Origin: Armatimonadota bacterium
Lineage (GTDB): Bacteria > Sysuimicrobiota > Sysuimicrobiia > Sysuimicrobiales > Sysuimicrobiaceae
Reading direction: 5' to 3'
Length of the DNA: 56,266 nt
NCBI GenBank assembly: GCA_025060455.1
Contig: JANXBY010000035.1
Location: forward strand, 1-56,266
Under the pieces are notes generated by a model that was not told the DNA's origin, did no database searches, and saw only the letters and a program-made list of their open reading frames with translations. Below, piece by piece: positions 20,855 to 38,363 of this stretch. Position 1 is the stretch's first letter; the number at the start of each line of letters is the position of its first letter. The position numbers and the translations under genes were made by a program.

Positions 20855-21727
20855 TCAGTCCGAGTACGGAACGCCGAGGGCCTGAGGCTTCGCCAGCCCC
20901 CAGCGGGTCCGGAACCACGGTGTGCTGATCACGGTGAGCGTGACCACCGTCACCAGGAAGGGGACGGTGCGCCAAACGTACCGCGACAGCACCCCCGGCA
21001 AGACGTACTCCGGGTTCAGGGACAGCTGCCACATGGCGCCGAACAGCACCGATCCACCCAGGAGAATCCACGGGTTCCACATGGAGAAGAACACCAGCGC
21101 GAGGCTCACGAACCCCCAGCCCATGAGGAAGTTGTAGTTCCACACCGGGTTGTAGGACAGGGTGTACGCGGCTCCCGCGAGCCCTGCCAGGGTTCCGCCG
21201 AATACTACGCACAGGTACCGGACCGCCGGCACGTTGACCCCGGAAGCCGCTGCGGCCGCGGGGTTTTCGCCCGCGGATCGGATGGCAAGCCCCAGGGAGG
21301 TGCGCGACAGGACGAACCATACCGCCACCACCAGGAGGACTCCCGCGTGCACAAAGGGGGACAGGCCCGCGAAGGTGGGGAACGGAGGCAGGCCCAGGGG
21401 ACCCGTGTGAGGGCTTCCGAGGTAGGTGGTGAGCCCGAAGCTGAGGACCCACAGGCCCATACCGCTGATGACCTGGTCGCCCCTGAGCCGGATGGAGAAC
21501 ACCCCGTGTACTCCACCCAGCAGCGCCCCCACCGCGACCCCCGCGCCCAGACCCAGGGCGTAGCTCGCCGAGGACTTGGCCACCACGAAGGCCGCGGTGC
21601 CGCCGAACAGCATGAGGCCTTCCACGCCCACGTTCAGCACCCCGGACCGTTGGTTCACCAGCTCCCCCAGGGCGGCGAGGAGGAAAACCGTGGACGCCTC
21701 CAGGCTTCGGACCAGCAGCTCGCTCAC
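20855..21727 (-). CDS. ABC transporter permease, BMP/nucleoside type (second permease)
   Basis: This inner-membrane permease of about eight helices (290 aa) belongs to the branched-chain/ribose-type permease family found with BMP binding proteins. The marks [22 protein letters not shown] near the N-terminus and [21 protein letters not shown] are typical of the short permease of such systems (YufQ/NupQ type). The GTG start at 21727 overlaps the stop of the first permease (GTGA). It is the last gene of a four-gene minus-strand operon and ends only 6 bases from the 3' end of tRNA-Leu. Confidence 0.88.
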
Positions 21728-22854
21728 CGGGCTTCCTCTGGCTGCGGACGGGCCGCGCGCGGCGGAGAGATGCGGCGCCACCGGAACCCATACCGGTCCA
21801 CCAGGTGCGACAGCACAAAGGTGGTCATGAGCAGCCCCAGGATGGCGTAGTCGACTCCGAAGGGCAGGCGCAGGGCTCCCTGCGCGAACCGGCCGCCCAC
21901 GGACAGGCCCGCGAACATGAGGGCCATGGGCACAGCCCCCACGGCGCTTCCTCGGGCGATCAGGGCGCAGATCATGCCGTAGAAGGACAGGTCTCCGTAG
22001 TAGCCGTAGTTGGTGGGGATCTTGTACAGCCCGGGGACCGCGGTGAAGTAGTGGTAGCCCGCCAGGCCTGCAAACGCGCCGCCCGCCACAAACACCCCCA
22101 CCGACACCCGGAGGGGGTCGATCCCCGCGTACCGGGCCGCCTGCGGGTTCAGACCGTAGGTGCGCACCCGGTAGCCCGCCGCGGTACGGGAGAATACGAA
22201 GTCGCTGGCCACCGAGGCCGCGAGGGCCAGAAACGCGGTCGGCGGCAGTCCCAGGAGGAGCGGGGGGCGGAAGTCCTGCGGCAGGGTGAAGCTTTCGCCC
22301 TCCGCGGTGGCGCTCATGAGGGCGCCACCCTCCTTGATGAAGTCTGCGACCAACCAGAACAGCACCGAGTTGAGCATCATGGTGACGAGGATCTCGTTGA
22401 GGTCCAGCTTGGCGCGGAGCAGCCCCACGAGCGCGCCCACGGCGGAGCCCGCCAGGGCCGCGGCCAGGGGCATGAGGAGCAACCACGGGCCCGGGGCTGC
22501 CGCCTCCCGGGCGCCGGCCCAGAAGGCCACCCCGAAGGCCGCCAGCGCTCCCGCGTACACCTGGCCGGGAAGCCCAATGTTCCACAGCCCGCCTCGCAAC
22601 GGCACGAGGAAAGCCAGGGTGCACAACAGGAGGTACGCGGCCCGGTGCACGGTGGCGCCCAGGCCCGAAGGGTTGGCGAAGGCGTAGCCGAACGCGATGC
22701 GGTAGGCGGCCCACGGTCCTGCCTCCGGCGTCCAGAACAACGCGCTGGCTAACAGGAGGGCCAGAGCCACAGCCACCAGGGCGCCCACAGCCACCCGGGC
22801 GGGAGAAGCGCCCTCCGCCCGTTCCACGGACAGTTCCCAGGCACCGAACCTCAA
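21724..22854 (-). CDS. ABC transporter permease, BMP/nucleoside type (first permease)
   Basis: This is the longer permease partner (376 aa) with an N-terminal helix, then typical family sequences: LVPLRGGLWNIGLPGQVYAG, AKLDLNEILVTMMLNSVLFW and GYRVRTYGLNPQAARYAGI. The start is set at TTG 22854, giving an N-terminus of MRFGAWELSVERAEG, the usual beginning of this family, and a TTGA overlap with the ATPase stop. GTG 22827 is the alternative. It forms the membrane channel with the next gene. Confidence 0.87.
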   Translation of the reverse strand: MRFGAWELSVERAEGASPARVAVGALVAVALALLLASALFWTPEAGPWAAYRIAFGYAFANPSGLGATVHRAAYLLLCTLAFLVPLRGGLWNIGLPGQVYAGALAAFGVAFWAGAREAAAPGPWLLLMPLAAALAGSAVGALVGLLRAKLDLNEILVTMMLNSVLFWLVADFIKEGGALMSATAEGESFTLPQDFRPPLLLGLPPTAFLALAASVASDFVFSRTAAGYRVRTYGLNPQAARYAGIDPLRVSVGVFVAGGAFAGLAGYHYFTAVPGLYKIPTNYGYYGDLSFYGMICALIARGSAVGAVPMALMFAGLSVGGRFAQGALRLPFGVDYAILGLLMTTFVLSHLVDRYGFRWRRISPPRAARPQPEEAR

Positions 22855-24404
22855 CGGTCCCTCCCGGCCAGGCCGGCCATCCACGCGCCCACCGTCTCGG
22901 GGTCCGTCTGGTGTCGAGGGACCAGGGCCACGAACCTCCCCTCGTAGAGGGCGCCCACGCGGTCGCTTACCGCGAACACCTCGTCCAGGTCCTCCGAGAT
23001 CAACACCACCGCGGCCCCCCGCGACTTGGCCTCCAGGAGACGCCCCCGCACGAAAGTGGCGGCCTCCACGTCCAGGCCCTGGGTGGGCAGGTGGGCGACC
23101 ACCACCCGGGGCTGCCTGGAGAGCACCCTCCCCACCACCAGCTTCTGCAGGTTGCCGCCTGAGAGGTGGCGCGCCTGCACGTACGGGTGAGGCGCCTTCA
23201 CGCGGAAGGTGGCCAGGATCCGGCGGGTCAGCCGTTCCAGCCGGCCGCGGTCCAGTAGCCCACGACGGCAGATCTCGGGGTCGAAGTGGTAGTTGAGCCC
23301 CACGTTGTCCACCAGGCTGAAGGCGGCCACGGTGGCCACCTCCGACCGGTCCGCGGGCACGTAGCCCATTCCCAGGCGCCACCGGTCCAGGGGCCGAAGG
23401 TGCGTGATGTCCCGGCCGGCCAGCCGGACGCGTCCCGAGGCCGCAGGCCGAAGGCCGGCCAGGACCTGCGCCAGCTCATCCTGCCCATTGCCCGTGACCC
23501 CGGCCACGCCCACGATCTCGCCCTCGTGCGCCGAGAACGAAACCCCCCGCAGGCTGAGCTGCCCCTTGTCGTTGTACGCGCAGAGGTCTTCCACCTCCAG
23601 CAGCACACCGCCCCGAGGGGTGTCTGTGGGAAGTCCGGGCAGGGCCACCTCCTGGCCCACCATGAGCTGGACCAGCTCCTGGTCGCTGGCTTCGGAGACC
23701 GGAAGCCGCGCCACCGCCCGGCCCGCCCGCAGCACCGTGACGGTCCGGGCCACCGCGCGGATTACGGGAAGCTTGTGGGTCACCAGCAGCACGGTCACCC
23801 CATGCTCCTCCACGAGGTTCCGCAACGCCCGGAGGAGGACCTGGACTTCTGGCGGGGTGAGGGCAGAGGTGGGCTCGTCCAGGATGAGGATCCGGGCGCC
23901 TGCGTACAGGGCCTTAAGGATCTCCACCCACTGCTTTTCGCCCTCCGGCAGCTGCCAGACCCGCGCGTCCAGGTCCACGTGCACGCCGTACCGCTGGCAC
24001 AGGCTCCGCAGCTCCCGCCGCGCGGCGTGCAGGTCCAGCAGGCCCCGCGCCCGGGGGTGGCCCAGCACCAGGTTCTCCAGCACCGTGTGGGCCGCCACCA
24101 GCTTGCGGGTCTGGTGCACCATGCCGATGCCGTGGGCCAGCGCGTCGTGGGGGGACCGGAATCGCACCCGCCGGCCGCGCAGGTACACCTCTCCCGCGTC
24201 CGGCTGCACCAGCCCGAACAGCACGTTCATGAGGGTGGTTTTCCCCGCACCGTTCTGCCCGAGGACCGCGTGGACCTCGGCTTCCTCCACCTCCAGATCC
24301 ACGCCGTCCAGGGCCAGCACGCCGGGGAACGCCTTGGTGATCCCGCGGGCGCGGAGGACGGGAGGTCGGGCCGTGGCTTGGGCGGAGTGTTGCTCGCGCG
24401 TCAC
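22851..24404 (-). CDS. ABC transporter ATPase, two nucleotide-binding domains (BMP system)
   Basis: This tandem ATPase (517 aa) powers the transporter encoded around it. The first domain has Walker A GQNGAGKTT near residue 55. The second domain has the degenerate P-loop GVTGNGQDE usual in RbsA-like and NupO-like ATPases, and a signature LSGGNLQKLVVGR. The GTG start at 24404 lies 46 bases after the binding-protein stop. Sugar and nucleoside systems share this architecture; the BMP binding protein argues for a nucleoside-type ligand. Confidence 0.9.
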   Translation of the reverse strand: MTREQHSAQATARPPVLRARGITKAFPGVLALDGVDLEVEEAEVHAVLGQNGAGKTTLMNVLFGLVQPDAGEVYLRGRRVRFRSPHDALAHGIGMVHQTRKLVAAHTVLENLVLGHPRARGLLDLHAARRELRSLCQRYGVHVDLDARVWQLPEGEKQWVEILKALYAGARILILDEPTSALTPPEVQVLLRALRNLVEEHGVTVLLVTHKLPVIRAVARTVTVLRAGRAVARLPVSEASDQELVQLMVGQEVALPGLPTDTPRGGVLLEVEDLCAYNDKGQLSLRGVSFSAHEGEIVGVAGVTGNGQDELAQVLAGLRPAASGRVRLAGRDITHLRPLDRWRLGMGYVPADRSEVATVAAFSLVDNVGLNYHFDPEICRRGLLDRGRLERLTRRILATFRVKAPHPYVQARHLSGGNLQKLVVGRVLSRQPRVVVAHLPTQGLDVEAATFVRGRLLEAKSRGAAVVLISEDLDEVFAVSDRVGALYEGRFVALVPRHQTDPETVGAWMAGLAGRDR

Positions 24405-24450
24405 GGTTGGGTGGCGGGGCCCGCGTCCAGGAGGGCGCGGGCCCCGGCGG

Positions 24451-25704
24451 TCACTTGAGCACGTTGAGGCCGTTCAGGTCAAAGTTGAACTTGGACAGCA
24501 GCCACTCGTCCGTGGGCATCTGCCCGGCGGGCTTCACCACGGTGCCCTTGGCAGGGATCGGGGTGCCCGGCAGGGCCAGCCCGGTCCCGTTGCTCACCAG
24601 GGCGTGCACCCGGAAGGGGTCCCACTCGCCCCTGCGCATCTGCTCCCGGCGCTGCGCCACCAGCCGCACGATGGAGTCGGGGATCTGGCGGCGCGCCTTC
24701 GGGCTGATGGCGTCCACCCCCTCCTTCTTGTTGTTCATGATGTCCACGGTGGAGACCACGGTCCCGTCCGCCAGGGTCATGCGGTCCCGCATCCCCAGGT
24801 ACAGCAGGTTGCGCGGGCTGCGGTTGCCCGCCAGGTAGTCGCGCACCATGCGGTCGTACAGCACCTCCCACCGGGTGTCGAAGGACACCGCCACCGTGTC
24901 CGTGTTAGACCACCCGTAGAACCCCACGATGTCCATGTCCTTGCCCACGAACCAGATCCTCCGCTGCTGGGCCACGTCCAGGGGAGACCCGGAGTCGGTC
25001 TGCTGGGTGAGGACGTCCACCCTGTACTGGGTGACCAGGGTGGTGGCCACCTCCCGCTCCTCCGTGGGCTTGTACCAGTCGCCCACGTATTTCACGTACA
25101 CGTTCACCCGCTTGCCCAGAGCCCGGGCGGCGTCCTGCACGCCCAGGAAGAAACCCGCGGTGCGCCGCAACACCTGCACGTTGGGGAACGCGGAGACGAC
25201 CCCGATGTTACCGGTGCGGGTGAGGGCGCCCGCGATGAGCCCCTCCAGGTACAGCGCCTGGTACTGGCGCGGGAAGAAGCGGATGAAGTTGGCCTTGCGG
25301 GTGACGTCGCTGGCCACCACCGACCCGAAGTACACGTTGGGGTATTTGTCCGCGATGTCCTTGAGGGGCAGCCCCATGAACTCCGCGTTGCCCACCACGA
25401 TGTTGGCACCCTGCCGGATGAGCTCCTCCGCGTACGGCACCGTGAGGTCCGGCCCCACCTCCTCACGGTACACGTACTTCACATTGGGGTACTTCTGTGC
25501 GATGCGCTGGCCCGCCCGGTGGTGGGCGCCCGACCACGTGGTGCCCTTGATCACGCTGAAGTGCAAGATGGCCAAGGTGACCGTGGGCGGCGCGGCGGCG
25601 GAACGCGCCTGCCAGGCCACGCCCACGGCCAGAAACAGCACCAACAGGGCGGCTGCCGGACGTGTCCACCGGCCACGCGCGCCGGAACCCGTTTGCCCGT
25701 GCAT
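24451..25704 (-). CDS. BMP family ABC transporter substrate-binding protein (long form)
   Basis: This 417-aa binding protein has a Sec signal (hydrophobic residues about 17-32, cleavage near SAAAPP) and no lipobox Cys. The BMP (PnrA-like) fold shows in GAHHRAGQRIAQKYPNV, the glycine/asparagine-rich pocket segment GANIVVGNAEFM, and DVLTQQTDSGSPLDVAQQRR. Known members bind purine nucleosides, though others bind different ligands. It is the first gene of the minus-strand transporter operon, with GGGAGGGAGCC before ATG 25704. It is longer than the second BMP protein (328 aa), so the two systems probably differ in ligand. Confidence 0.88.
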   Translation of the reverse strand: MHGQTGSGARGRWTRPAAALLVLFLAVGVAWQARSAAAPPTVTLAILHFSVIKGTTWSGAHHRAGQRIAQKYPNVKYVYREEVGPDLTVPYAEELIRQGANIVVGNAEFMGLPLKDIADKYPNVYFGSVVASDVTRKANFIRFFPRQYQALYLEGLIAGALTRTGNIGVVSAFPNVQVLRRTAGFFLGVQDAARALGKRVNVYVKYVGDWYKPTEEREVATTLVTQYRVDVLTQQTDSGSPLDVAQQRRIWFVGKDMDIVGFYGWSNTDTVAVSFDTRWEVLYDRMVRDYLAGNRSPRNLLYLGMRDRMTLADGTVVSTVDIMNNKKEGVDAISPKARRQIPDSIVRLVAQRREQMRRGEWDPFRVHALVSNGTGLALPGTPIPAKGTVVKPAGQMPTDEWLLSKFNFDLNGLNVLK

Positions 25705-25730
25705 GGCTCCCTCCCCCGAACCCCAAAGCT

Positions 25731-25749
25731 CGCCGGACGTCCTCCGGCG
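25731..25749. promoter_or_regulatory. Inverted repeat between the divergent BMP and allF genes
   Basis: CGCCGGA (25731-25737), 5 bases, TCCGGCG (25743-25749) is a perfect 7-bp inverted repeat inside the 149-base divergent spacer. It could be an operator shared by the two divergent operons, or a hairpin in the leader of the minus-strand transcript, since it is only 27 bases from the BMP start. No clear -35/-10 pair was found in this spacer. Confidence 0.25.
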
Positions 25750-25853
25750 GCGGAACGCAGCCTACATTCTTCGCGGGTTCGCGTTTCTCCTCCGGGCGGT
25801 GGGGAAGGGGCCGACGCAGAGCGGGTCGAACCACACGGTTGGAGGAAGCCGCC

Positions 25854-27611
25854 ATGCCGGTGGTCGGGCGCGTCCACAAGGGTCGCTACCACGACTCCGT
25901 GGCCCTGATGCAGGCGCAGCAGATCCTGCGCCAGATGCCCGGGGTGGAGGAAGCTGGCGTGGTGATGGGCACCCCCGCCAACCTGGCCCTGCTGAGGGAC
26001 GCGGGCCTGGATGCCCCGGAGCTGGCCGAGGCCGGGCCGGACGACCTGGTGGCGGTGGTGCGGGCTGCCACGGAAGCAGATGCCCTGCGGGCCCTGGAGC
26101 GGCTGGAGGAGGCGCTGAGCACGCGGTCCCGGGGCGAGGGCCCCGCCTACCGTCCCCGGAGCGTGCGGACCGCGGTGCGGGCGCTGCCGGGCGCCAACGT
26201 GGCCTTGGTCTCGGCCCCGGGACGGTTCGCGGCCGCCGTGGCGGAGGAGGCTCTGAGGGAAGGGCTGCACGTCTTCCTGTTCAGCGACAACGTGCCGGTG
26301 GAGGAAGAGGTCCGCCTGAAGCAGCTGGCCCAGCAGCGTGGCCTTCTGGTCATGGGCCCCGACTGCGGGACGGCCATGGTGGCCGGCGTGGGGTTGGGGT
26401 TCGCCAACCGGGTCCGGCGCGGCGGCGTGGGGATCGTGGCCGCCTCCGGCACGGGCCTGCAAGAGGTGGCGTGCCTGGTGCACCGCTGGGGTGCAGGCGT
26501 CTCCCACGCCCTGGGCACCGGCGGGCGAGACCTGTCCGACGCGGTGGGCGGGGCCAGCTTCACCGCGGCCCTGGCGGCCCTTTCGGCCGACCCCGACACC
26601 CGCGTGGTCGTGGTGGTGTCCAAGCCGCCTTCCCCGAGGGTGGCGGAGCGGATCCTGGCCTTGGCGCGGCGCTGCGGAAAGCCGGTGGTGGTGAATTTCC
26701 TGGGCGCCCGGGCGGCGCGCAGCCGAGAGGGCATCTACTTCGCCTCGACCCTGGAGGAAGCCGCGCGCCTGGCCACCACTCTGGCGGGTGCGAGGCCAGG
26801 GGAGCCCGCCGCCGAGGAGATCTGCGCCCCGCCGCGGTGGGCTGTTGGCCAGCGGTGGGTCCGCGGGCTGTTCGTGGGGGGCACTCTGTGCGCGGAGGCT
26901 CAGCTGGTCCTCCGTCAGCGTCTGGGCCGCGTGTGGTCCAACGCGCCCCTCACCCCGGACGCCAAGCTGGCAGGGGTTACGAGCCGGGAGCACACGGTGC
27001 TGGATCTGGGCTCAGACGAGTTCACCGTGGGACGGCTGCACCCCATGCTGGATCCCTCTCCGCGGCGCCACCGGCTGATCCACGAGGCCCGGGATGCGGA
27101 GGTGGCGGTGGTGCTGGCGGACGTGGTGCTGGGCTACGGTGCCCATCCGGACCCCGCGGCCGAGCTGGCAGGGGCGTGGGAGGAGGCGGTGGATGTAGCC
27201 CGGGCCGCGGGCCGCGAGCTGGTGTGCGTGGCGTCCGTGTGCGGGACGGAGCTGGACCCTCAGCCGTACGCGCAGCAGGTGGAGCGGCTGCGCCAGGCCG
27301 GGATCGTGGTGGCGTCCACCAACGCCGCGGCCGCGCGCCTGGCCGCGGGCCTGTGCGCCGGTGCGGCGCCTCCGCAGGAGGCTGGTCCGTTGCCCTCCGT
27401 GGACGTACCCGATGCCGAAGAACCCCTGCCCGCGACGTCGGACGCCTTGCGGAGTCTGCTGAGGGGGCCTGTACGGGCGGTAAACGTGGGCCTGGAGACC
27501 TTCGCGCAGAGCCTGGTTGCCCAAGGCGTGCCAGTGGTCTCGGTGGACTGGAGGCCGCCCGCGGAGGGCGACGCGGGGCTGCTGGCACTCTTGTCGCGCC
27601 TGGGCGGCTGA
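25854..27611 (+). CDS. allF: FdrA/AllF family protein, probable carbamoyltransferase subunit
   Basis: This 585-aa protein is of the FdrA family, related in fold to the succinyl-CoA synthetase and acyl-CoA synthetase group (E. coli FdrA is about 555 aa). The family start RVHKGRYHDSVALMQAQQIL and the motif MGPDCGTAMV (from residue 167) are clear, followed by the Rossmann segment GVGIVAASGTGLQEVACLV. E. coli FdrA (renamed AllF) has been reported as one of three proteins needed for oxamate carbamoyltransferase in allantoin breakdown. ATG 25854 is chosen over upstream starts because of GGAGGA at 25841-25846. AllG follows after a 126-base gap. Confidence 0.85.
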   Translation: MPVVGRVHKGRYHDSVALMQAQQILRQMPGVEEAGVVMGTPANLALLRDAGLDAPELAEAGPDDLVAVVRAATEADALRALERLEEALSTRSRGEGPAYRPRSVRTAVRALPGANVALVSAPGRFAAAVAEEALREGLHVFLFSDNVPVEEEVRLKQLAQQRGLLVMGPDCGTAMVAGVGLGFANRVRRGGVGIVAASGTGLQEVACLVHRWGAGVSHALGTGGRDLSDAVGGASFTAALAALSADPDTRVVVVVSKPPSPRVAERILALARRCGKPVVVNFLGARAARSREGIYFASTLEEAARLATTLAGARPGEPAAEEICAPPRWAVGQRWVRGLFVGGTLCAEAQLVLRQRLGRVWSNAPLTPDAKLAGVTSREHTVLDLGSDEFTVGRLHPMLDPSPRRHRLIHEARDAEVAVVLADVVLGYGAHPDPAAELAGAWEEAVDVARAAGRELVCVASVCGTELDPQPYAQQVERLRQAGIVVASTNAAAARLAAGLCAGAAPPQEAGPLPSVDVPDAEEPLPATSDALRSLLRGPVRAVNVGLETFAQSLVAQGVPVVSVDWRPPAEGDAGLLALLSRLGG

Positions 27612-27648
27612 CCCGGGCGCCGCCGTCTGACGCCCTGCATCGGTCAGG

Positions 27649-27672
27649 TAAGATGTGGAATAAGATGTGGAA
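27649..27672. repeat. Perfect tandem 12-bp repeat (TAAGATGTGGAA twice)
   Basis: TAAGATGTGGAA occurs at 27649-27660 and again at 27661-27672 without spacing, in the allF-allG gap. It is unusually AT-rich for this DNA. TAAGAT is also close to a -10 box. It may be a pair of operator half-sites or a duplicated promoter element. Confidence 0.6.
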
Positions 27673-27698
27673 GCGGGCCCGGCGAGCCCAGGGCCCGC
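27673..27698 (+). terminator. Hairpin with T-rich tail after allF
   Basis: GCGGGCCC (27673-27680), 10 bases, GGGCCCGC (27691-27698) is a perfect 8-bp GC stem, followed by GTTTGGTTTG. This resembles a weak rho-independent terminator or an attenuator ahead of allG. It sits directly after the tandem repeat. AllG keeps its own ribosome-binding site (CAGGAGG). Confidence 0.45.
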
Positions 27699-27737
27699 GT
27701 TTGGTTTGACAACGCAGCTGCCCACAGGAGGCGCCCC

Positions 27738-28979
27738 GTGGACGTGGACGCGGCCAACGAGGTGGTGGTGCGGAGGATCCTGGAGTCGCACCCGGTGCTG
27801 GTCGGGGTCGGCAGGGCCCTGGACGTGGTGCCGGGCATGCGGAAAGACCTGATCCTGCACGCGGGGCCGCCGGTGACGTGGGACCGCATGTGCGGACCGC
27901 TGCGGGGAGCGGTGATCGGCGCACTCCTGTACGAGGGCCTGGCCCGCGACGAACGGGAGGCGGGGGAGCTGGCCGCGTCCGGGGCGGTGCGGTTCGAGCC
28001 CTGCCACCACCACGCAGCGGTGGGCCCCATGGCCGGTGTCACCACGGCCTCCATGCCCGTCTACATCGTGGAGAACCGGACCTTCGGAAACCGCGCCTAC
28101 TCCAACTTCAACGAGGGTTACGGCCGGGTACTGCGGTACGGCGCGTACGCCCCGGAGGTCCTGGATCGCCTGCGGTGGATCAACGACACGGTCGCCCCGG
28201 CCATCGGGGAGGCGCTGCAGCGCATGGGCGGGCTGGACATGAAGGCCACCATCGGCCGGCAGCTCACCATGGGGGACGAAGGGCACAACCGCAACGTGGC
28301 GGGCTCCAGCCTGTTCGCGCGGCAGCTGGCCCCCGCCTTGGCGGACTGCGACTTGCCCCGGGAGGTGCTGTCCGGGGTCCTTCGGTATCTGGCGGACAAC
28401 GACCTGGCCATTCTGAATCCGGTGATGGCCGCCTGCAAGGCCACCATGGACGCCGCGCACGGGGTTTCAGGGTCCAGCGTGGTCACCTGCATGGCGCGCA
28501 ACGGCACCGAGTTCGGGATCCGGGTCTCGGGCCTGGGCGACCGGTGGTTCGTGGCCCCCGCGCCCGTGCCCAAGGGTCTGTACTTCCCCGGGTTCCGGGA
28601 CGAGGACGCCAACCCCGACATCGGAGACTCCACCATCACGGAGACCGCGGGCATCGGTGCTTTCGCCATGGCCGCGTCTCCCGCCATCGTGAGGTTCGTG
28701 GGCGGTACTCCCCAGGAGGCCCTGACAGCCACCCTGGAGATGTACGAGATCACCGTGGCGGAGAACCCCGCCTTCGCCATCCCGCAGCTGGACTTCCGGG
28801 GGGCGCCGACGGGCATCGACGTGCGGAAGGTGGTGCGCACGGGGATCACCCCGCGGGTGAACACCGGGATCGCCCACCGGGAGCCGGGCGTGGGGCAGAT
28901 CGGCGCAGGGTTGGTGCGGCCGCCCATCCGGCCTTTCCAGGAGGCGCTGCGGGCGCTGGCGGAGCTGGTCTCCCCATGA
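27738..28979 (+). CDS. allG: DUF1116 family protein (YlbE/AllG), probable carbamoyltransferase subunit
   Basis: This 413-aa protein matches the DUF1116 family (E. coli YlbE, about 420 aa). Recognisable sequences are PVLVGVGRALDVVPGM, GPPVTWDRMCGPLRGAVIGA, the His-rich CHHHAAVGPMAGV (from residue 89), VENRTFGNRAYSNFNEGYG and MARNGTEFGIRVSG. YlbE (AllG) is reported to act with AllF and AllH in oxamate carbamoyl transfer. The GTG start at 27738 follows CAGGAGG. Its stop overlaps the ABC ATPase start by ATGA, so it is coupled to nucleoside-type uptake genes. Confidence 0.88.
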   Translation: MDVDAANEVVVRRILESHPVLVGVGRALDVVPGMRKDLILHAGPPVTWDRMCGPLRGAVIGALLYEGLARDEREAGELAASGAVRFEPCHHHAAVGPMAGVTTASMPVYIVENRTFGNRAYSNFNEGYGRVLRYGAYAPEVLDRLRWINDTVAPAIGEALQRMGGLDMKATIGRQLTMGDEGHNRNVAGSSLFARQLAPALADCDLPREVLSGVLRYLADNDLAILNPVMAACKATMDAAHGVSGSSVVTCMARNGTEFGIRVSGLGDRWFVAPAPVPKGLYFPGFRDEDANPDIGDSTITETAGIGAFAMAASPAIVRFVGGTPQEALTATLEMYEITVAENPAFAIPQLDFRGAPTGIDVRKVVRTGITPRVNTGIAHREPGVGQIGAGLVRPPIRPFQEALRALAELVSP

Positions 28980-30490
28980 CCGCCCCTCTGGTGCGCATGC
29001 GCGGCATCTCCAAGCGCTTCGGGCCCGTGGTGGCCCTGGACGGCGCGGAGTTCGAACTCCTGGCGGGCGAGGTGCACGGGCTGCTCGGTGAGAACGGTGC
29101 GGGTAAGACCACCCTGATGAACGTGCTGGCAGGGCTGTACCGGGCGGACGCGGGCGAGGTGGAGGTGGACGGACGGCCTGCGGCCATCCGGGAGCCCCGG
29201 GACGCGGTGCGGCTGGGAATTGGGATGGTGCACCAGCACTTCGAGCTCGTGGGTCAACTGAGCGCCCTGGAGAACGTGGTGCTGGGTCGCGAGGGCGGCG
29301 CGTGGCTGCGGACGGACCGCCTGCGGCGCGAGGTGCAGGCCCTCATGGAGAGGGTAGGCCTGCCGGTGCCGCTGGACCGTCCGGTGCGGGAGCTGCCCGT
29401 GGGAGTCCAGCAGAAAGTGGAGATCCTCAAGGCCCTGTACCGGGGAGCCCGGGTGCTGATCCTGGACGAGCCCACCACCCTGCTGACCCCGCAGGAGGTG
29501 GACAGCCTGTTCGCCTCCGTGCGCGCCTTGGTGGAAGCAGGGGTTTCCGTGGTGTTCATCACCCACAAGCTGCACGAGGTGCTCCGCACCTGCGACCGGG
29601 TGACGGTGATGCGCCGGGGCCGGCGGGTGGTCACCGTGGGCCGACAGGAGGCCGACCCCACGCGCCTGGTGGAGTGGATGGTGGGCACCGCTCCACCCCC
29701 ACCCGCAGCCCGCAACCCCTCCCCGCCCGGCCGGCCGGTGCTGGAGCTGGAGGCGGTGAAGGTACTGGACAGCCGCGGCGTGCTGGCCCTGGACGGGTGC
29801 ACCCTGGCCGTGAGGGCCGGCGAGCTGGTGGGGGTGGCGGGCGTGAGTGGAAACGGGCAGCAGGCTCTGGCCTCGGTGGTGGCGGGGACCGTACGGCCTG
29901 CGTCCGGGGTGGTGCGGCTGGATGGCCGGGTGGCCACGCGGCACGGGGTGGCGGAGCGGATGCGTGCGGGCGTGCTCAGCGTCCCCGAGGACCGGTTGCG
30001 GGACGGAATCCTGCCCCGCATGAGTGTGGCGGAGAACGTGCTGCTGGGGCGCCACCGGCTGCACTTCCGGGGCGTGTGGTACGAGCCGGAAGTCGGTCGC
30101 CGGCTCGCTCAACAGGCCATTGAGGAGTTCCGCATCGCCTGCCCCGGGCCGGACGCCCCCGCGGGCCAGCTCAGCGGCGGCAACCTGCAGAAGCTCATCG
30201 CGGCCCGGGTGTTCGGCGGCGCCCGCGAGCGCGGCGCGCGGCTGCTGGTGGCGCACAACCCGACCCGGGGCCTGGACGTGCCCTCCACGGAGTTCCTGCA
30301 CGGCCGGCTGGTGGAGTTCTGCCAGGCGGGAGGGGCGGTCCTGCTCATCTCGGAGGACCTGGACGAGCTGCTGAAGCTGTCGGACCGCATCGCGGTCCTG
30401 TACCGCGGACGAGTGGTGGCAGAGTTCCCCAGGGGACGGTTCGACCGGTACGAGATCGGACGCGCCATGACCGGAGGGGTCTCGGCATGA
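28976..30490 (+). CDS. ABC transporter ATPase, two nucleotide-binding domains (second BMP system)
   Basis: This tandem ATPase (504 aa) is parallel to the one at 22851-24404. Domain 1 has Walker A GENGAGKTT and Walker B VLILDEPTTLLTP; domain 2 has the degenerate GVSGNGQQA and the signature LSGGNLQKLIAAR. ATG 28976 overlaps the allG stop (ATGA), and the stop overlaps the first permease. It belongs to the RbsA/NupO-like class used by BMP-type uptake systems. Confidence 0.9.
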   Translation: MTAPLVRMRGISKRFGPVVALDGAEFELLAGEVHGLLGENGAGKTTLMNVLAGLYRADAGEVEVDGRPAAIREPRDAVRLGIGMVHQHFELVGQLSALENVVLGREGGAWLRTDRLRREVQALMERVGLPVPLDRPVRELPVGVQQKVEILKALYRGARVLILDEPTTLLTPQEVDSLFASVRALVEAGVSVVFITHKLHEVLRTCDRVTVMRRGRRVVTVGRQEADPTRLVEWMVGTAPPPPAARNPSPPGRPVLELEAVKVLDSRGVLALDGCTLAVRAGELVGVAGVSGNGQQALASVVAGTVRPASGVVRLDGRVATRHGVAERMRAGVLSVPEDRLRDGILPRMSVAENVLLGRHRLHFRGVWYEPEVGRRLAQQAIEEFRIACPGPDAPAGQLSGGNLQKLIAARVFGGARERGARLLVAHNPTRGLDVPSTEFLHGRLVEFCQAGGAVLLISEDLDELLKLSDRIAVLYRGRVVAEFPRGRFDRYEIGRAMTGGVSA

Positions 30491-31518
30491 CCACGGGGGC
30501 CGCGCCGCGCGGCGGGTGGCAGGCCGCCTGGCCGTACGCGGGTGCGCTGGCCATCGCCCTAGCGGTGCTGGCGGGGCTCGTGGCGGCGCTGGGAGGCAAC
30601 GCCTCCGAGGCGCTGGCGGGGGTGTTCCGGGCGGCTTTCGGCACGGGCGCGGGCCTGGGCCAGACCCTGAACAAGACCACCCCGCTTTTGCTGGGCAGCC
30701 TGGCGGTGGTGCTGGGCCTGCGGGCGGGCGTGTTCAACATCGGGGTGGACGGGCAGATCTACGCGGGGGCGGTGGCCGCCACCGGTGCGGCCTTCCTGCT
30801 GGCGGACGTTCCCAGAGCCGTGGCACTACCCGGGGTGCTGCTGGCAGGCCTGGCGGGCGGTGCGGCGTGGGGCCTGCTGCCCGGATTGCTGCGGGCACGC
30901 ATGGGCGTGAACGAGATCTTCGTGACCGTGATGCTGAACTTCGTCGCCTTGTTCCTGGTCGAGTACCTGAGCACCGGCCCCTGGAACGACCCCACCGCGG
31001 GCGAGGCCATCACCCGGGCCATTCCGCCCCAGGCAACTCTCCCGTGGCTTTTCGCCCGCGCGGGAGCCCACGCGGGTGTTCTTTTGGCCTTGGCGGCGGC
31101 CGGAGGGGTGTGGCTGCTGCTGTACCGCACGGTGTTCGGCTACGAGCTGCGAGCTACGGGCGACAACCCCTCCGCAGCCCTGGTAGGCGGCGTGCCCGTG
31201 GCCCGGGTGGTGGCGGTGGCCCTGGTGGCCAGCGGCGCGCTGGCGGGGCTGGCGGGCGCGGTGGAGGTCAGCGGGTTCCACTACCGGCTGATCCTGGGGC
31301 TTTCGCCCGGCTACGGGATGATGGCCATCCTCATCGCGGTGCTCAGCCGTCGTCACCCGCTGCTGGCTGTGCCCGCGGCCCTGGGGTTCGCAGCCCTTCT
31401 GGTGGGTACTGACTCCCTGCAGCGGAGCGTGGGCCTGCCTGCCAGCGCGGTATTCGTGGTGCAGGCGGCGCTGCTGCTGGTGCTGCTGGCGGTGGAGGGC
31501 GTGCGGAGGGCGCGGTGA
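30487..31518 (+). CDS. ABC transporter permease (second BMP system, first permease)
   Basis: This integral membrane permease (343 aa) shows the family marks LRAGVFNIGVDGQIYAGAVA, ARMGVNEIFVTVMLNFVALF and GYELRATGDNPSAALVGGVP, the last being the loop that contacts the ATPase. ATG 30487 overlaps the ATPase stop and the stop overlaps the next permease (GTGA). It corresponds to the permease at 21724-22854 in the other system. Confidence 0.9.
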   Translation: MTTGAAPRGGWQAAWPYAGALAIALAVLAGLVAALGGNASEALAGVFRAAFGTGAGLGQTLNKTTPLLLGSLAVVLGLRAGVFNIGVDGQIYAGAVAATGAAFLLADVPRAVALPGVLLAGLAGGAAWGLLPGLLRARMGVNEIFVTVMLNFVALFLVEYLSTGPWNDPTAGEAITRAIPPQATLPWLFARAGAHAGVLLALAAAGGVWLLLYRTVFGYELRATGDNPSAALVGGVPVARVVAVALVASGALAGLAGAVEVSGFHYRLILGLSPGYGMMAILIAVLSRRHPLLAVPAALGFAALLVGTDSLQRSVGLPASAVFVVQAALLLVLLAVEGVRRAR

Positions 31519-32453
31519 GCTGGGAGCTGTTCGCAGACCCGTCCCTGTTCCGCCTGGCGGTGGCCATGGCGGTGCCGCTGGTCCTGGCCAGCGCCGGCGA
31601 AGTGCTGATGGAGCGGGGCGGGATCCTCAACGTGGCCGTCGAGGGCATGGTCACCCTCGGAGCCGCGGCGGCCTTCCTGGCAGGGTTTGCCACCGGCAGC
31701 ACCTGGGTCGGTTTCACGGCCGCGGCCGCCGCCGGCGTCCTGGTGGCGTCGGTGCTGGCCCACTACGCAGTGGTCTGGCGGCAGGAGCAGGTGACCGTGG
31801 GCCTCACCCTGTATGTGCTGTGCCTGGGGCTGGCGTCCTTGCTGTACCGGGTGGTGGTGGGCGTGCGGCTCTCCCCGCCGCGGGTGGAGACGCTGCAGCC
31901 GGTCTCCCTGCCCGTGCTGAGCCAGGTGCCGGTGCTCGGCGAGGTGCTGTTCCGCCAGCACGCCCTGGTGTACCTGTCCGCCGCGGTGGTGGCCGCAGCA
32001 CACGTGCTGTTGTTCCGCACCGCCCTGGGGCTGCGGCTGCGGTCGGTGGGCGAGAACCCCGTGGCCGCGGACACCGTAGGGGTGGACGTGTTCCGGCTGC
32101 GCAGGGCCGCCGCGGCCGCCGGCGGGGCGCTGGTGGGGCTCGCAGGCGCCAGCCTGCCCTTCACCCTCACGGGGACCTTCACGGAGGGTATCGCGGGCGG
32201 GCGGGGGTGGATCGCCCTGATGTTGGTCATCTTCGGGCGGTGGACGCCCGCGGGGGCCGCGGGCGGGGCGTTGTTATTCGCGTACGTGGAGGCGCTGCAG
32301 TTCAAGCTGGCCATGACGAGCCGGGCGGTGCCCCCGCAGTTCCTCCAGATGCTGCCGTACCTCTTCGCGGTGGCGGTGCTGGTCCGCGCGTACCGGGGAG
32401 CCCAGGCCCCGGGGGCCCTGGGCAAGCCATACCACCGGGAGGCGCGGGCGTAA
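31515..32453 (+). CDS. ABC transporter permease (second BMP system, second permease)
   Basis: This is the shorter permease (312 aa) of the pair, with LVLASAGEVLMERGGILNVA, the nucleoside-type permease N-terminus, and ALGLRLRSVGENPVAADTVG, the ATPase-contacting loop. GTG 31515 overlaps the preceding stop. It pairs with the gene at 30487 and corresponds to 20855-21727 in the other system. Confidence 0.9.
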   Translation: MSWELFADPSLFRLAVAMAVPLVLASAGEVLMERGGILNVAVEGMVTLGAAAAFLAGFATGSTWVGFTAAAAAGVLVASVLAHYAVVWRQEQVTVGLTLYVLCLGLASLLYRVVVGVRLSPPRVETLQPVSLPVLSQVPVLGEVLFRQHALVYLSAAVVAAAHVLLFRTALGLRLRSVGENPVAADTVGVDVFRLRRAAAAAGGALVGLAGASLPFTLTGTFTEGIAGGRGWIALMLVIFGRWTPAGAAGGALLFAYVEALQFKLAMTSRAVPPQFLQMLPYLFAVAVLVRAYRGAQAPGALGKPYHREARA

Positions 32454-32474
32454 AAAAGCAGGGGAGGTGATCCA

Positions 32475-33461
32475 GTGCGACGGGTGATGTGGCTGCTGCT
32501 GGTCAGCGTGGCGGTGGCGGCGGGTCTACCCTCCGGGGCCGCTCCCGCGCGGCCGCGGATGGCCATGATCCTTCCGGGCGTGATCCAGGACGCGGACTTC
32601 AACGCGGTGGGCTACCAGGCCCTCAAGGAGGTCCAGGCCACCACCGGGGTGCAGACCGCGCACTCCGAGCAGGTGGCGGTGGCGGACGCGGAGCGGGTGG
32701 CGCGGGAGTACCTGAGCGCGGGCTACAGCATCGTGGCCTTCCACGGGGGCCAGTACCTGACCATCGTGCAGAAGCTGGCGCCCCTGTTCCCGGACGCCAC
32801 CTTCATCATGGAGTCCTCGGGGCAGATCCCCAACCTGCCGGCCAACGTGTGGAACATCGGCCGCAAGTTCTACGAGGGCTTCTACGTCCTCGGCGTCCTG
32901 GGTGCCCTGGCCACCCGCTCCAACAAGGTGGGCTACATCGCGGGCATCCGACTGCCGGACTTCGTGGCGTCCTTGAACGCGGTATTCCAGGCGGTGGCGA
33001 AGTACAACCCCCGGGCGGAGGTGCTGTACACCTTCGTGGGTGACCAGAACGACCCCGTGAAGGCACGCCAGGCGGCGGAGTCCCAGATCGCCGCGGGCGT
33101 GGACTTCATCGTGATCAGCGTGAACCTCGGGACGGTGGGGGTGATCGAGGCCGCGCGGGCAGCCCGGCGGCCTGTGCTCCTCACCACCTTCTACACGGAC
33201 AAGAGCAGCTACGCGCCGCAGCACTTCACCGCCTCTCTCCTGTCCAACTTCGGCAAGCCCTACGTGGAGGTGGTGCGGCAGATCCTGGCCGGCCGTCGGT
33301 CCGGCTACTACGAGATGCGGCCGGGTGCGGGCTTCGGGCTCACCCCGCCCAAGAACGTGCCGCCGGAGGTGAGCCGGCGGGTTCAGGAGGTGTGGCGGGC
33401 GGTGGTGTTGCGCCAGGAACGCATCGAGGAGGTCACCGACCGGATCGTGGAACGGCGGTAG
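32475..33461 (+). CDS. BMP family ABC transporter substrate-binding protein (short form)
   Basis: This 328-aa binding protein has a Sec signal (residues about 4-22, no lipobox Cys) and the BMP-family core IQDADFNAVGYQALKEVQAT, SIVAFHGGQYLTIVQKLAPL and YEGFYVLGVLGALATRSNKV. The GTG start at 32475 follows a strong GGGGAGGTGA (32461-32470). It closes the operon allF/allG-ATPase-permease-permease-BMP. Purine nucleosides are the known ligands of the family; the co-transcribed allG suggests a compound feeding N-heterocycle breakdown. Confidence 0.88.
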   Translation: MRRVMWLLLVSVAVAAGLPSGAAPARPRMAMILPGVIQDADFNAVGYQALKEVQATTGVQTAHSEQVAVADAERVAREYLSAGYSIVAFHGGQYLTIVQKLAPLFPDATFIMESSGQIPNLPANVWNIGRKFYEGFYVLGVLGALATRSNKVGYIAGIRLPDFVASLNAVFQAVAKYNPRAEVLYTFVGDQNDPVKARQAAESQIAAGVDFIVISVNLGTVGVIEAARAARRPVLLTTFYTDKSSYAPQHFTASLLSNFGKPYVEVVRQILAGRRSGYYEMRPGAGFGLTPPKNVPPEVSRRVQEVWRAVVLRQERIEEVTDRIVERR

Positions 33462-33544: not shown

Positions 33545-35284
33545 ATGGCGGAAGCCAGGTCTCAAGCGCAGGTGTCGTGCCCGCGGTGTGGGACCGCCGC
33601 GGACGAGGGGCTGCTGGCGTCCACGTGGTACACGTGCCCCAGCTGCCAGTACCACCTACCGGTGCCGGCACCGGTGCGGATCGCCCAGCTGGCGGATGCC
33701 GGGAGCTTCCGGGAGTGGGACCGGGGACTCACGTCCGTGGACCCGCTGCACTTCGCGGACCACAAGCCCTACCGGGAGCGGTTGTGGGAGGCCCGGCGGG
33801 CCACAGGGCTGCGGGAGGCGGTGGTCACCGGCCAGGCCACCCTGGACGGCCAGCCGTTCGTGCTGGTGGTGTTTGACTTCCGCTTCCTGGGGGGAACCAT
33901 GGGTTCCGCGGTGGGAGAGAAGGTCGCCCGGGCCTTCGAGGGGGCGACCCGGAGGCGGCTTCCGGTGCTGGCGGTGACCGCGTCCGGCGGGGCACGGATG
34001 CAGGAGGGGATGCTGTCATTGCTGCAGATGGCGAAGACCGCGGCGGCAGCCGGGCAGCACCACGCCGCGGGGCTGCCATACGTGGCGGTGCTTAGCAACC
34101 CCACCTTCGGCGGGGTGGCGGCTTCCTTCGGGGTGCGGGCGGACGTGCTGCTGGCGGAGCCGGACGCGCTGATCGGGTTCGTGGGGCCGCGGGTGGTGGA
34201 GATGACCACGGGGGAGCCCGCTCCCGAGGAGGCGTACCGGGCGGAAAGCCTGCTGCGGCACGGGCTGGTGGACATGGTGGTGCCGCGGGGCCAACAGCGC
34301 CGGGTGTTGAGCTACCTGCTGCGGCACCTGCGGCCTGCGCCCTCCGGCCGGGTGGGGCGGCCACAGCTGCCGCCCCTGCCGCAACCCGCCCACCTGTCCG
34401 CGTGGGAGACGGTGCAGCTGGCGCGGCGGGTGGGCCGGCCCACCGCGGTGGACTACCTGCTGCGGGCCTTCGACGGGTTCTTGGAGCTGCACGGGGACCG
34501 GGCTTCGGGGGACGACCCCGCGGTGGTGGCGGGCCTGGGGGAGCTGGGCGGCCAGACGGTGTTCGTGGTGGCGCAGGAACGGGGCCGGACGGAGGAGGAG
34601 CAGGTGCAGCGCCGCCGCGGGATGGCCCTGCCCGAGGGGTTCCGCAAGGCGTGCCGTATCCTGCGCATGGCGAGCAAGTTCCAACTACCCCTGGTGACCC
34701 TGGTGGACACCCCGGGGGCCTACCCCGGGCCGGAGGCAGAGCGCCGGGGCATTGCCGCGGCCATCGCGGAGTGCCTGGCCACCCTGGTGGCCCTACCCGT
34801 GCCCACGGTGGCGGTGGTGATCGGGGAAGGCGGCAGCGGAGGTGCGCTGGCCCTGGCCACCGCGGACCGGGTCCTGATGCTGGAGCACGCCATCTACTCC
34901 GTGATCTCTCCGGAGGGTGCTGCGGCCATCCTGTACAGGAACGCCAGCAGGGCTCCGGAGGTGGCGGAAGCGCTGCGGCTCACCTCCGCGGACCTGCGGC
35001 GCCTGGGGGTGGTGGACCGGGTGGTGCCCGAGCCGCCTGGGGGCGCCCACAACGACCCCCAGAGGGCCGCGGAGCTGCTGCGGGACCACCTGCTGGACGC
35101 CCTTCGGGATGTGCAGGCACAGCCCATCCGCCGGCTGGTGCGGCAGCGCTACCAGCGGTACCGCCACATCGGGCCGGTGGGCACGTACTGGAAGGTGTTG
35201 CTGCGGGAGGAGCTGGAGGAGTTCCGGGAAGGCGTGGTCAGGCGCCTGCGCCGCCCTGCCGCGAAGGCGGCGGAGCCCTCCTAG
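33545..35284 (+). CDS. accDA: Fused acetyl-CoA carboxylase carboxyltransferase beta-alpha (AccD-AccA)
   Basis: This 579-aa protein fuses the two carboxyltransferase subunits that move CO2 from carboxybiotin to acetyl-CoA, the first step of fatty acid synthesis. Residues 1-40 form the AccD zinc ribbon (Cys12, Cys15, Cys31, Cys34). The beta core follows (SGGARMQEGMLSLLQMAKT, GGVAASFGVRADVLLAEPDA) to about residue 270. From about 285 the alpha part shows LHGDRASGDDPAVVAGLG, LVDTPGAYPGPEAERRGIA and IGEGGSGGALALATADRVLM. ATG 33545 follows AGGAGGG. In most bacteria accA and accD are separate genes. Confidence 0.93.
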   Translation: MAEARSQAQVSCPRCGTAADEGLLASTWYTCPSCQYHLPVPAPVRIAQLADAGSFREWDRGLTSVDPLHFADHKPYRERLWEARRATGLREAVVTGQATLDGQPFVLVVFDFRFLGGTMGSAVGEKVARAFEGATRRRLPVLAVTASGGARMQEGMLSLLQMAKTAAAAGQHHAAGLPYVAVLSNPTFGGVAASFGVRADVLLAEPDALIGFVGPRVVEMTTGEPAPEEAYRAESLLRHGLVDMVVPRGQQRRVLSYLLRHLRPAPSGRVGRPQLPPLPQPAHLSAWETVQLARRVGRPTAVDYLLRAFDGFLELHGDRASGDDPAVVAGLGELGGQTVFVVAQERGRTEEEQVQRRRGMALPEGFRKACRILRMASKFQLPLVTLVDTPGAYPGPEAERRGIAAAIAECLATLVALPVPTVAVVIGEGGSGGALALATADRVLMLEHAIYSVISPEGAAAILYRNASRAPEVAEALRLTSADLRRLGVVDRVVPEPPGGAHNDPQRAAELLRDHLLDALRDVQAQPIRRLVRQRYQRYRHIGPVGTYWKVLLREELEEFREGVVRRLRRPAAKAAEPS

Positions 35285-35385: not shown

Positions 35386-36222
35386 ATGGCCTTTGACCTG
35401 TTCGACCTGCGGGGTTGCCGCGTGCTGGACCTTTCCCAGAACTTCAGCATGGACTCCCCGCCCTTCGCGTACTACGACGGCCCCACCATCAAGTGGGTCA
35501 AGAAGATCGCCTTCGAGGGGGTGAACGCCCAGCACATCTCTACCACCAACCACATCGCCACACACCTGGACGCGCCCCTGCACTTCTACGACCCTGGCCC
35601 GGACATCTCGGGGATCCCCATCGAGCGACTGGTGGGACCCGCGTGCATCGTGGACCTGCAGCAGTTCGGCATCGGCGACTACGACATCTACGGACCGCAG
35701 CACTTCGAGGAGTGGGAGCGCCGCACCGGGATCCGGATCGAGCCCGACGACATCCTGGTGATCCACACCGGCTATCACGCCTACTACAACGAGGATTGGT
35801 CGCCGCACACCAAGGAGCGCCACCCGGACGCCGCCGCGGACCTGCCGCGGTCCTTCCTGAAGCACCCCGGGCCGCGGGCGGAGTTCTGCGAGTGGGTCCT
35901 GGACCGCAAGATCCGGTGGCTGGCGGTGGATGCCATCTCGACCGACCACCCCTTCAACACGAAGGTCCGGGAGGCCCGGCGGGACCTGATCCCGGAGGTG
36001 GAGCGGAAGATCGGCATGTCCGTGGACGAGGCCTTCCCGTGGCCGCGGGACTACCAGGCCACCCACACCAAGCTGTTCCCCCGTGGGGTGTTCCACGTGG
36101 AGAACGTGGGCGGCGACATCGACCTGGTGCTGAACCGGAGGGTGTGGGTGGGCGCCTTCCCGTTCCGGTTCAAGGGCGGTGAGGCGGCCTTCTGCCGGTT
36201 CGTGGCGTTCGTGCGGGAGTAG
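35386..36222 (+). CDS. Cyclase-family metal-dependent hydrolase (kynurenine formamidase-like)
   Basis: This 278-aa protein belongs to the cyclase/kynurenine formamidase/isatin hydrolase superfamily. The metal-binding motif HxxTHxDxPxH is intact at residues 56-66 (NHIATHLDAPLHF), and family sequences DILVIHTGYHAYY and VFHVENVGGDIDL follow. Members hydrolyse amide bonds such as N-formylkynurenine or isatin with Mn or Zn; the substrate here cannot be told. ATG 35386 follows GGAGGTGAG. A family III CoA-transferase starts right after its stop, so the two probably serve one pathway. Confidence 0.85.
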   Translation: MAFDLFDLRGCRVLDLSQNFSMDSPPFAYYDGPTIKWVKKIAFEGVNAQHISTTNHIATHLDAPLHFYDPGPDISGIPIERLVGPACIVDLQQFGIGDYDIYGPQHFEEWERRTGIRIEPDDILVIHTGYHAYYNEDWSPHTKERHPDAAADLPRSFLKHPGPRAEFCEWVLDRKIRWLAVDAISTDHPFNTKVREARRDLIPEVERKIGMSVDEAFPWPRDYQATHTKLFPRGVFHVENVGGDIDLVLNRRVWVGAFPFRFKGGEAAFCRFVAFVRE

Positions 36223-38359: not shown

Positions 38360-38363
38360 GGTG

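Follow-up and report, generated by a model that had tools for sequence, protein, structure and literature searches.

Why would one locus carry two complete ATP-binding cassette (ABC) importers of the same family, running in opposite directions around a pair of carbamoyl-metabolism genes? This arrangement, built around homologues of allF and allG, lies on a 56,266-nucleotide contig (JANXBY010000035.1) of the Armatimonadota bacterium assembly GCA_025060455.1 (2.26 Mb, 80 contigs), placed in the Sysuimicrobiota; the entire contig, C38 in our numbering, is referred to here as the window. An initial annotation had proposed two distinct nucleoside-type systems for two related substrates, for example a purine nucleoside and a base or ureide. 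We favour, at a probability of about 0.55, an island for pyrimidine-base catabolism with two uptake systems, the reactions and ligands of which we infer from gene content. As transporters the two importers are of an ordinary, known kind, and what makes the locus interesting is the module that they serve.

Two complete importers flank allF and allG

Gene calls and matches to PF02608, PF00005 and PF02653 agree that both systems are full BMP (PnrA-like) importer sets, each with a binding protein, a tandem ATPase and two BPD_transp_2 permeases. Importer 1 runs leftward with its binding protein first: BMP1 (417 amino acids; 24451..25704, −; PF02608, 78.2 bits), the tandem ATPase (22851..24404, −; two PF00005 stretches; best NCBIfam match ABC_ATP_B6 at 440 bits, under the cut-off of 670), permease B (21724..22854, −; PF02653, 101 bits; inferred start) and permease A (20855..21727, −; PF02653, 112.1 bits over residues 335-590 of a long open reading frame (ORF), with an inferred start near 21727). 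Five bases separate its last stop from a tRNA-Leu gene (anticodon GAG; 20765-20849, +), and GAPDH, PGK and TIM genes lie on the side of that gene away from importer 1.

On the forward strand follow the fdrA/allF homologue (25854..27611, +; PRK06091, 554.6 bits, cut-off 433; inferred start), the allG homologue (DUF1116; 27738..28979, +; PF06545, 315.7 bits) and importer 2, which runs rightward with its binding protein last: the tandem ATPase (28976..30490, +; two PF00005 stretches), whose ATG overlaps the allG stop, permease B (30487..31518, +; PF02653, 129.7 bits), permease A (31515..32453, +; PF02653, 105.4 bits) and BMP2 (328 amino acids; 32475..33461, +; PF02608, 104.5 bits). The same strand continues with genes for a fused AccD-AccA carboxyltransferase (AccDA), a PF04199 cyclase-family hydrolase (the cyclase) and a class III (CaiB) CoA-transferase. 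Operons were deduced from gene spacing and overlaps; promoter and terminator scans gave nothing above chance, and no Rfam family matched at the gathering threshold.

Strands, order and lengths match the initial annotation, as does the absence of a recent duplication: because BMP1 and BMP2 have no significant mutual BLASTP match (about 20% identity, E 0.24) and the two ATPases are 46% identical, we regard the systems as old paralogues. The locus had been drawn around allF and allG, both of which stand, with coordinates that omit allH. The allH homologue (DUF2877; 43020..43817, −; PF11392, 81.3 bits) ends a molybdenum hydroxylase (Mo-hydroxylase) operon in the same window, and all three families AllF, AllG and AllH are thus present within 18 kb.

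The AllG of the window falls in a cyclase-linked clade

An AllG tree built from 137 loci plus the E. coli sequence, 138 rows in all (L058 was omitted as too short), placed all 88 cyclase-linked rows in one clade of 110 rows (Shimodaira–Hasegawa-like approximate likelihood ratio test support 95), together with 22 unlabelled rows. The AllG of the window lies in this clade, and nine of nine purine-labelled rows lie outside it, including that of E. coli, a long branch labelled on the basis of passages of PMC11326118. Rows with both labels were scored as cyclase (one case, L152, with an allantoinase-like gene). For gene counts, clade I comprises the 110 rows and L058, and clade II the other 27 loci; the tree, whose root fork is weak, draws three of these (L060, L065, L071) on the side of clade I. 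Among the neighbours of clade II genes are an 8-oxoguanine deaminase (L040; 647.2 bits, cut-off 532) and an allantoinase (L054; 506.2 bits, cut-off 357.85); blastp detected none of the purine markers used in positions 20701-49500 of the window.

Gene presence near AllG was scored in 138 loci by blastp against one representative per gene, and Fisher p values are uncorrected for relatedness and for the number of tests. Because all 27 clade II loci belong to the order of the window and 79 clade I loci lie outside it, the fair contrast is the one within the order (32 clade I versus 27 clade II loci). The cyclase occurs in 89/111 clade I and 0/27 clade II loci (25/32 versus 0/27 within the order), CaiB in 34/111 and 0/27 (21/32 versus 0/27), AccDA in 20/111 and 0/27 (20/32 versus 0/27), AllH in 16/111 and 0/27 (7/32 versus 0/27) and BMP1 in 12/111 and 0/27 (6/32 versus 0/27, p 0.03). 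Purine markers show the opposite pattern (1/111 and 8/27; 0/32 versus 8/27), and an AllK-like carbamate kinase was found in 1/111 and 3/27 loci (0/32 versus 3/27, not significant). FdrA accompanies 99/111 clade I and 5/27 clade II genes, and any Mo-hydroxylase subunit 66/111 and 10/27 (p 0.05). Amidase or CN-hydrolase genes (43/111), NCS2 permease genes (17/111), cytosine deaminase-like genes (10/111; 18/111 for either of these last two) and dihydropyrimidinase/hydantoinase-like genes (8/111) were each found in 0/27 clade II loci, and BMP2 (6/111 and 2/27) and Dpp-type genes (9/111 and 5/27) in both clades. In the 79 loci outside the order we counted 64 with the cyclase, 59 with a Mo-hydroxylase subunit, 42 with amidase or CN-hydrolase, 14 with NCS2, 13 with CaiB, nine with a malonyl-CoA synthetase-like gene and six with a cytosine deaminase-like gene. 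Set against the counts within the order, these show other phyla as the main source of the direct pyrimidine and amidase markers and this order as the only source of AccDA.

The earlier purine guess is therefore disfavoured: the AllG of the window lies outside the purine-linked clade of the E. coli enzyme, and its neighbours indicate pyrimidine and malonate chemistry. Passages of PMC11326118 report a measured oxamic transcarbamylase activity for E. coli AllFGH (oxalurate <-> oxamate + carbamoyl phosphate). The window holds the same three subunit families, but its AllG belongs to a separate clade, its allH to another operon and the genome's carbamate kinase to another contig, and the purine markers are missing from the interval searched.

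One importer is conserved and the other slot is exchangeable

We searched 61 genomes, the window's own and 60 relatives, of which three (G001, G002, G003) belong to the same genus; AllG is present in 41 of them. The importer pair around allF-allG is whole in G001 (L035) and G003 (L037), and in G002 (L036) the arrangement is kept until the contig ends after the importer 1 ATPase. The pair is genus-wide in the genomes searched, a repetition that argues against chance. G005 (L038), from a different genus within the family, has importer 1 in place, with a BMP 85% identical to BMP1, and a second system follows allG in the opposite direction with a BMP2-like protein of 45% identity; two further members of the family (G004, G006) gave no AllG match. 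Importer 1 also lies beside the module in G009 (BMP 81% identical) and, in additional stretches analysed, in G025 and G034 (81%); in the last two, Dpp-type ABC transporter genes separate allG from the cyclase gene. Two uptake systems per locus are a recurrent state, in which BMP1 is the more conserved and the other slot is exchangeable.

The contents of that slot, between allG and the cyclase gene, vary between lineages: BMP2 (with AccDA) in the genus of the window, a cytosine deaminase-like gene in G010, G023, G029 and G017 (L042, L062, L073, L052), and Dpp-type genes in G007, G016, G025 and G034 (L039, L051, L066, L081). A gene resembling an NCS2 uracil permease follows AccDA in L042, L062 and L073, and a cytosine deaminase-like gene stands between AccDA and the cyclase in G005 (L198). 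These contents lend plausibility, and no more, to a pyrimidine-related ligand for BMP2.

Six of 80 named AllG loci analysed carry BMP1 homologues of 66-78% identity (L104, L105, L114, L123, L125, L130; the 66% homologue, in L123, is truncated where the stretch ends); five of the six are labelled Chloroflexota or a group thereof, and L105 only 'bacterium'. BMP1 follows Mo-hydroxylase and CoxG-like genes in L104, L114 and L130 and is in line with allH and Mo-hydroxylase genes in L041, so the ligand of BMP1 is most simply the substrate of the Mo-hydroxylase. BMP1 accompanies a single catabolic module, made up of the Mo-hydroxylase, the cyclase, AllF-AllG-AllH and the CoA-transferase.

BMP1 and BMP2 belong to different lineages

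By sequence, the best solved relative of both BMP1 and BMP2 is AtzT (87.7 and 88.1 bits), followed by 3s99. AtzT belongs to the AtzSTUVW importer of Pseudomonas sp. ADP (6pi5) and, according to passages of PMC6834077, was crystallised with guanine and with 2-hydroxyatrazine; like the two proteins studied here, it is a BMP-fold ABC importer protein beside catabolic genes for N-heterocycles. In a structure search, an AlphaFold model of BMP1 made with 11 sequences (BMP2 relatives included; predicted local distance difference test score (pLDDT) 76) matched AtzT best (Z 31.3, root mean square deviation 3.1 over 323 residues), tied with 3s99 (Z 30.7), and scored Z 26.8 and below against entries titled as nucleoside complexes; identity to AtzT and 3s99 in the structure alignments is 22-25%. 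A first model (six sequences, pLDDT 55) was too poor and was discarded. We take 3s99 to be an adenine binder, its entry title naming only an iodide soak. In a BMP tree of 23 rows (with several long branches, and partial rows for the solved chains), BMP1 groups with AtzT and 3s99. Of the six rows labelled BMP2, five share a long branch of their own on the side of the nucleoside binders (support 92/96), and one, from L046, falls with AtzT.

At the nine AtzT pocket positions named in passages of PMC6834077 (Tyr45, Ser97, Phe98, Thr139, Glu165, Asn169, Trp194, Asn218, Asn220), the residues of BMP1 are W A E L Q R W Q D, identical in the ten sequences aligned (the window and nine homologues, from two phyla). 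For BMP2 they are F G G F D S Q S N in three aligned members of the genus and, in L038 and L118, Y G G F F E F S N, so that BMP1 and BMP2 differ at all nine. BMP1 keeps the aromatic sandwich, with Trp and Trp for Tyr45 and Trp194, and every other position is changed (Ala, Glu, Gln, Arg, Gln and Asp at 97, 98, 165, 169, 218 and 220); BMP2 has lost one aromatic of the pair (Gln at 194) and retains a Phe-Asn pair also found in nucleoside binders. By closeness, BMP1 is AtzT-like in sequence and fold and BMP2 in sequence only, but the ligand-contacting residues of AtzT are not shared beyond the aromatic pair in BMP1, and less in BMP2. As judged from sequence, BMP2 is a separate lineage with another pocket. 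Two further BMP importers lie directly before clade II allG genes (L046:8142-9353 in G013 and L083:8173-9294 in G034); in the L046 protein the nine AtzT pocket positions read Y S F F F N F I D.

A nucleoside type for BMP1 is not supported, its closest sequence, fold and tree place all being those of AtzT, and a third BMP system provides the contrast. It lies outside the window, on C64 (L095, G000:C64:27100-45911; BMP at 9094-10461, −), beside a PF04227 gene (L095 10785-11735, +; 352.9 bits) of what we presume to be the pseudouridine-5'-phosphate glycosidase (psuG) family. Its best solved relatives are 4pev, 7x0r and 2fqw, with AtzT absent from the nine matches listed at E 0.01; its residues at the AtzT positions are F G F S V F F P G, and in the tree it joins 4pev and the nucleoside binders 7x0r, 2fqw and 6yab. 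By these sequence criteria the genome's nucleoside-type BMP is the third system and neither of the pair. What stands of the two nucleoside-type systems first proposed is that the importers are distinct, with different pockets and lineages, at one catabolic locus; the nucleoside assignment of BMP1 is unsupported.

A candidate route from pyrimidine base to acetyl-CoA

The genes around the importers would together make a route for pyrimidine bases. The BMP1 importer would bring in the Mo-hydroxylase substrate; the likeliest candidate is uracil or another pyrimidine base, or one of their oxidised relatives such as barbiturate. The Mo-hydroxylase would oxidise uracil to barbiturate. Its operon encodes, ahead of allH, a large subunit (45629..48307, −; NF040766, 1036.4 bits, cut-off 950; profile match from ORF residue 116), a CoxG-like small protein (45189..45638, −), named by eye from its translation, whose homologues adjoin the Mo subunit in related loci, an FAD subunit (44305..45198, −; inferred start; NF041019, 252.1 bits, under the cut-off of 350) and a 2Fe-2S subunit (listed ORF 43824..44621, −, the true start probably inside; NF041020, 214.8 bits over residues 110-261, under the cut-off of 290).

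The cyclase (35386..36222, +; PF04199, 116.1 bits; inferred start) is the proposed ring opener, converting barbiturate to ureidomalonate. Kynurenine formamidase and isatin hydrolase are distantly related to it (its best match, at 44 bits, is an unnamed cyclase), and H56, H60, D62 and H66 are invariant in the ten sequences aligned. Chloroflexota loci (L104, L105, L114, L123, L130 and others) have two PF04199-like cyclase genes in tandem after allG, the second of which may act on another intermediate. AllF-AllG-AllH would then transfer the carbamoyl group of ureidomalonate to phosphate, giving carbamoyl phosphate and malonamate, a product that we propose because ureidomalonate is the open form of barbiturate and the reaction would be of the AllFGH type. 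Carbamate kinase (on C51; 369.1 bits, cut-off 358.25) would recover ATP from carbamoyl phosphate.

An amidase, here one of two encoded on C65, would convert malonamate to malonate, CaiB (36224..37417, +; PF02515, 484.9 bits; inferred start) would convert malonate to malonyl-CoA, and the extra AccDA (33545..35284, +; inferred start) would decarboxylate malonyl-CoA to acetyl-CoA, a guess based on its being a second copy tied to CaiB. A housekeeping role for AccDA is unlikely because another AccA is encoded on C55 (419.1 versus 360.4 bits). The best solved relative of CaiB is the succinate--hydroxymethylglutarate CoA-transferase 9br6. The importer 2 genes, inside the allF-allG operon, would serve a second related compound.

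The neighbours of clade I AllG, compared with solved structures by one representative per cluster, fit such steps: the best solved relatives are malonyl-CoA synthetase for the malonyl-CoA synthetase-like protein (389.7 bits), malonamidase E2 for the amidase (177 bits; the next family, GatA, 139.7), cytosine deaminase for the cytosine deaminase-like protein (182.1 bits, with N-isopropylammelide hydrolase close at 172.9) and uracil permease for the NCS2 protein (133.8 bits). The amidase gene directly precedes fdrA in L116, L119 and L137, and a CN-hydrolase gene stands between fdrA and allG in L104, L114 and L130; CN-hydrolases were searched by blastp in the window at 20701-49500 only.

The proposed intermediates uracil, barbiturate, ureidomalonate and malonate are those of the known oxidative pathway, in which, according to passages of PMC7662398 and PMC3706326, uracil is degraded via barbituric acid to malonic acid and urea. 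The route differs from that Rhodococcus type in that carbamoyl phosphate would replace urea and no PF09663 match was found in the genome of the window. Barbiturase we take to be a member of PF09663, and an AtzD-type barbiturase in the module was set aside on this negative result. The family was found in two of the 61 genomes (G018:C156:24786-25871 and G036:C19:6202-7287), the G018 gene sharing its contig with a purine-labelled AllG; these two loci (L193, L194) were compared by tblastn with the module query set only. Taken as a whole, the module may be a complete, undescribed oxidative pyrimidine pathway, in which a cyclase-family opener replaces AtzD-type barbiturase, an AllFGH-type phosphorolytic transcarbamoylase replaces ureidomalonase, carbamoyl phosphate and with it ATP is recovered, and a BMP1-type importer serves some lineages; this fuller proposal is tentative, and we rate it slightly below even odds.

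Between cyclase operon and Mo-hydroxylase operon lie other genes. An EamA-family transporter gene (37433..38368, −; PF00892, 126 bits) stands beside allH in L199 and L200, is found again close to allH, the Fe-S subunit or CaiB in L196, L197, L198, L199, L200 and L202, and may belong to the module. Genes at 39633-42981 (−) for an LtaA-like major facilitator superfamily protein, a diglucosyl diacylglycerol synthase-like protein (both below cut-offs) and a lipid kinase-family protein form a possible glycolipid set between the module halves. Outside this interval, at 51472-53774 (−), a second CaiB CoA-transferase gene adjoins an acyl-CoA dehydrogenase gene, an arrangement kept in G001 and G003.

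Weighing the alternatives

Several observations weigh against the pyrimidine reading. Within the order, cytosine deaminase-like (4/32) and NCS2 genes (3/32 versus 0/27) are few and their excess not significant, nor is that of amidase or CN-hydrolase genes (1/32 versus 0/27). Mo-hydroxylase subunits, at 7/32 versus 10/27, do not separate the clades significantly there, a count softened by the fact that in at least L196, L197, L200, L201 and L202 the Mo-hydroxylase lies outside the 20-kb stretches. Malonyl-CoA synthetase-like genes occur in 10/111 clade I but also in 2/27 clade II loci (1/32 versus 2/27 within the order, not significant), and their representative scores just below its NCBIfam cut-off (553.9 versus 558). 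AccDA is found in 0/79 loci outside the order. A point in favour of the reading, that BMP1 (12 loci) and the NCS2 gene (17 loci) share no locus, is weak (one-sided p 0.07). The window has no PF01425 amidase; the genome's three are on C36 and C65, the two on C65 having 39% and 32% identity with the amidase that represents the module. NCBIfam names the Mo subunit a CO dehydrogenase, with NF040766 above its cut-off. Finally, the Gln and Arg of BMP1 at AtzT Glu165 and Asn169 mean that its ligand need not be a plain base.

This last point bears on a substrate other than uracil: the module could degrade and import another N-heterocycle that yields an acylurea, such as orotate, a hydantoin, a modified pyrimidine or, by way of methylmalonate, thymine. 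The conserved pocket Arg of BMP1 could suit an acidic ligand, and the dihydropyrimidinase/hydantoinase-like genes of eight clade I loci would fit, but the recurrence there of cytosine deaminase-like and uracil permease-like genes makes this unlikely. Low weight also goes to the idea that the importers share a substrate, differing in affinity or regulation, or that the BMP2 system is an operon passenger with an unrelated substrate. The slot that it occupies holds other genes, including transporters, in other families and is to that extent exchangeable; yet BMP1 and BMP2 differ throughout the pocket and sit in different parts of the tree, and BMP2 keeps its place in four genomes of the genus.

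We think it improbable that AllFGH acts on oxalurate as in E. coli, with CaiB acting on oxalate or oxamate and both importers taking up purine-derived compounds. The family names, the activity measured for the E. coli enzyme (passages of PMC11326118), the resemblance of CaiB to YfdE (305.9 bits) and the guanine found in AtzT speak for it, as do passages of PMC12625717, in which allFGHK near bmpA-nupABC in comammox and Nitrososphaerales metagenome-assembled genomes is interpreted as oxalurate use by nitrifiers. A BMP importer near allFGH is thus already published, but those passages mention no cyclase, CaiB or AccDA. The position of all purine-labelled AllG rows outside the clade of the window and the lack of purine markers in clade I loci within the order (0/32 versus 8/27 in clade II) stand against it, and it leaves the malonate-type neighbours and the extra AccDA unexplained. 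Our search of open-licence literature returned, among the matches listed, no title or abstract opening joining AllFGH to pyrimidines, which is no proof of absence; the words purine, pyrimidine, nucleoside, allantoin and uracil do not occur in the text of the Sysuimicrobiota paper PMC11604079.

That the Mo-hydroxylase is a CO dehydrogenase beside allH by accident is very improbable: its family score and the Mo-hydroxylase subunits near clade II AllG notwithstanding, the large subunit has PYRGAGR (coded at 46869-46885), form II-like, in place of the form I motif AYXCSFR, a pattern search of loci L035-L178 (duplicates included) gave 36 PYRGAGR and no CSFR-type motif, passages of PMC13203968 call the role of form II enzymes unclear, and 66 of 111 clade I loci have such a subunit.

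Implications

If the pyrimidine reading is right, the FdrA/DUF1116/DUF2877 family would have two branches, one for purines (oxalurate) and one for pyrimidines, and the locus would supply candidate genes for two steps, the oxidation of uracil and the opening of barbiturate by an enzyme from outside the AtzD family. Malonamate would gain a metabolic place, and caution would be due in transferring an allantoin annotation to such genomes. The two marked binding proteins would have ligands that test the whole pathway. The gene module was seen in Sysuimicrobiota, Chloroflexota, Spirochaetota and others, and it suggests a new, testable role for a poorly understood carbamoyl-transferring family in largely uncultured bacteria.

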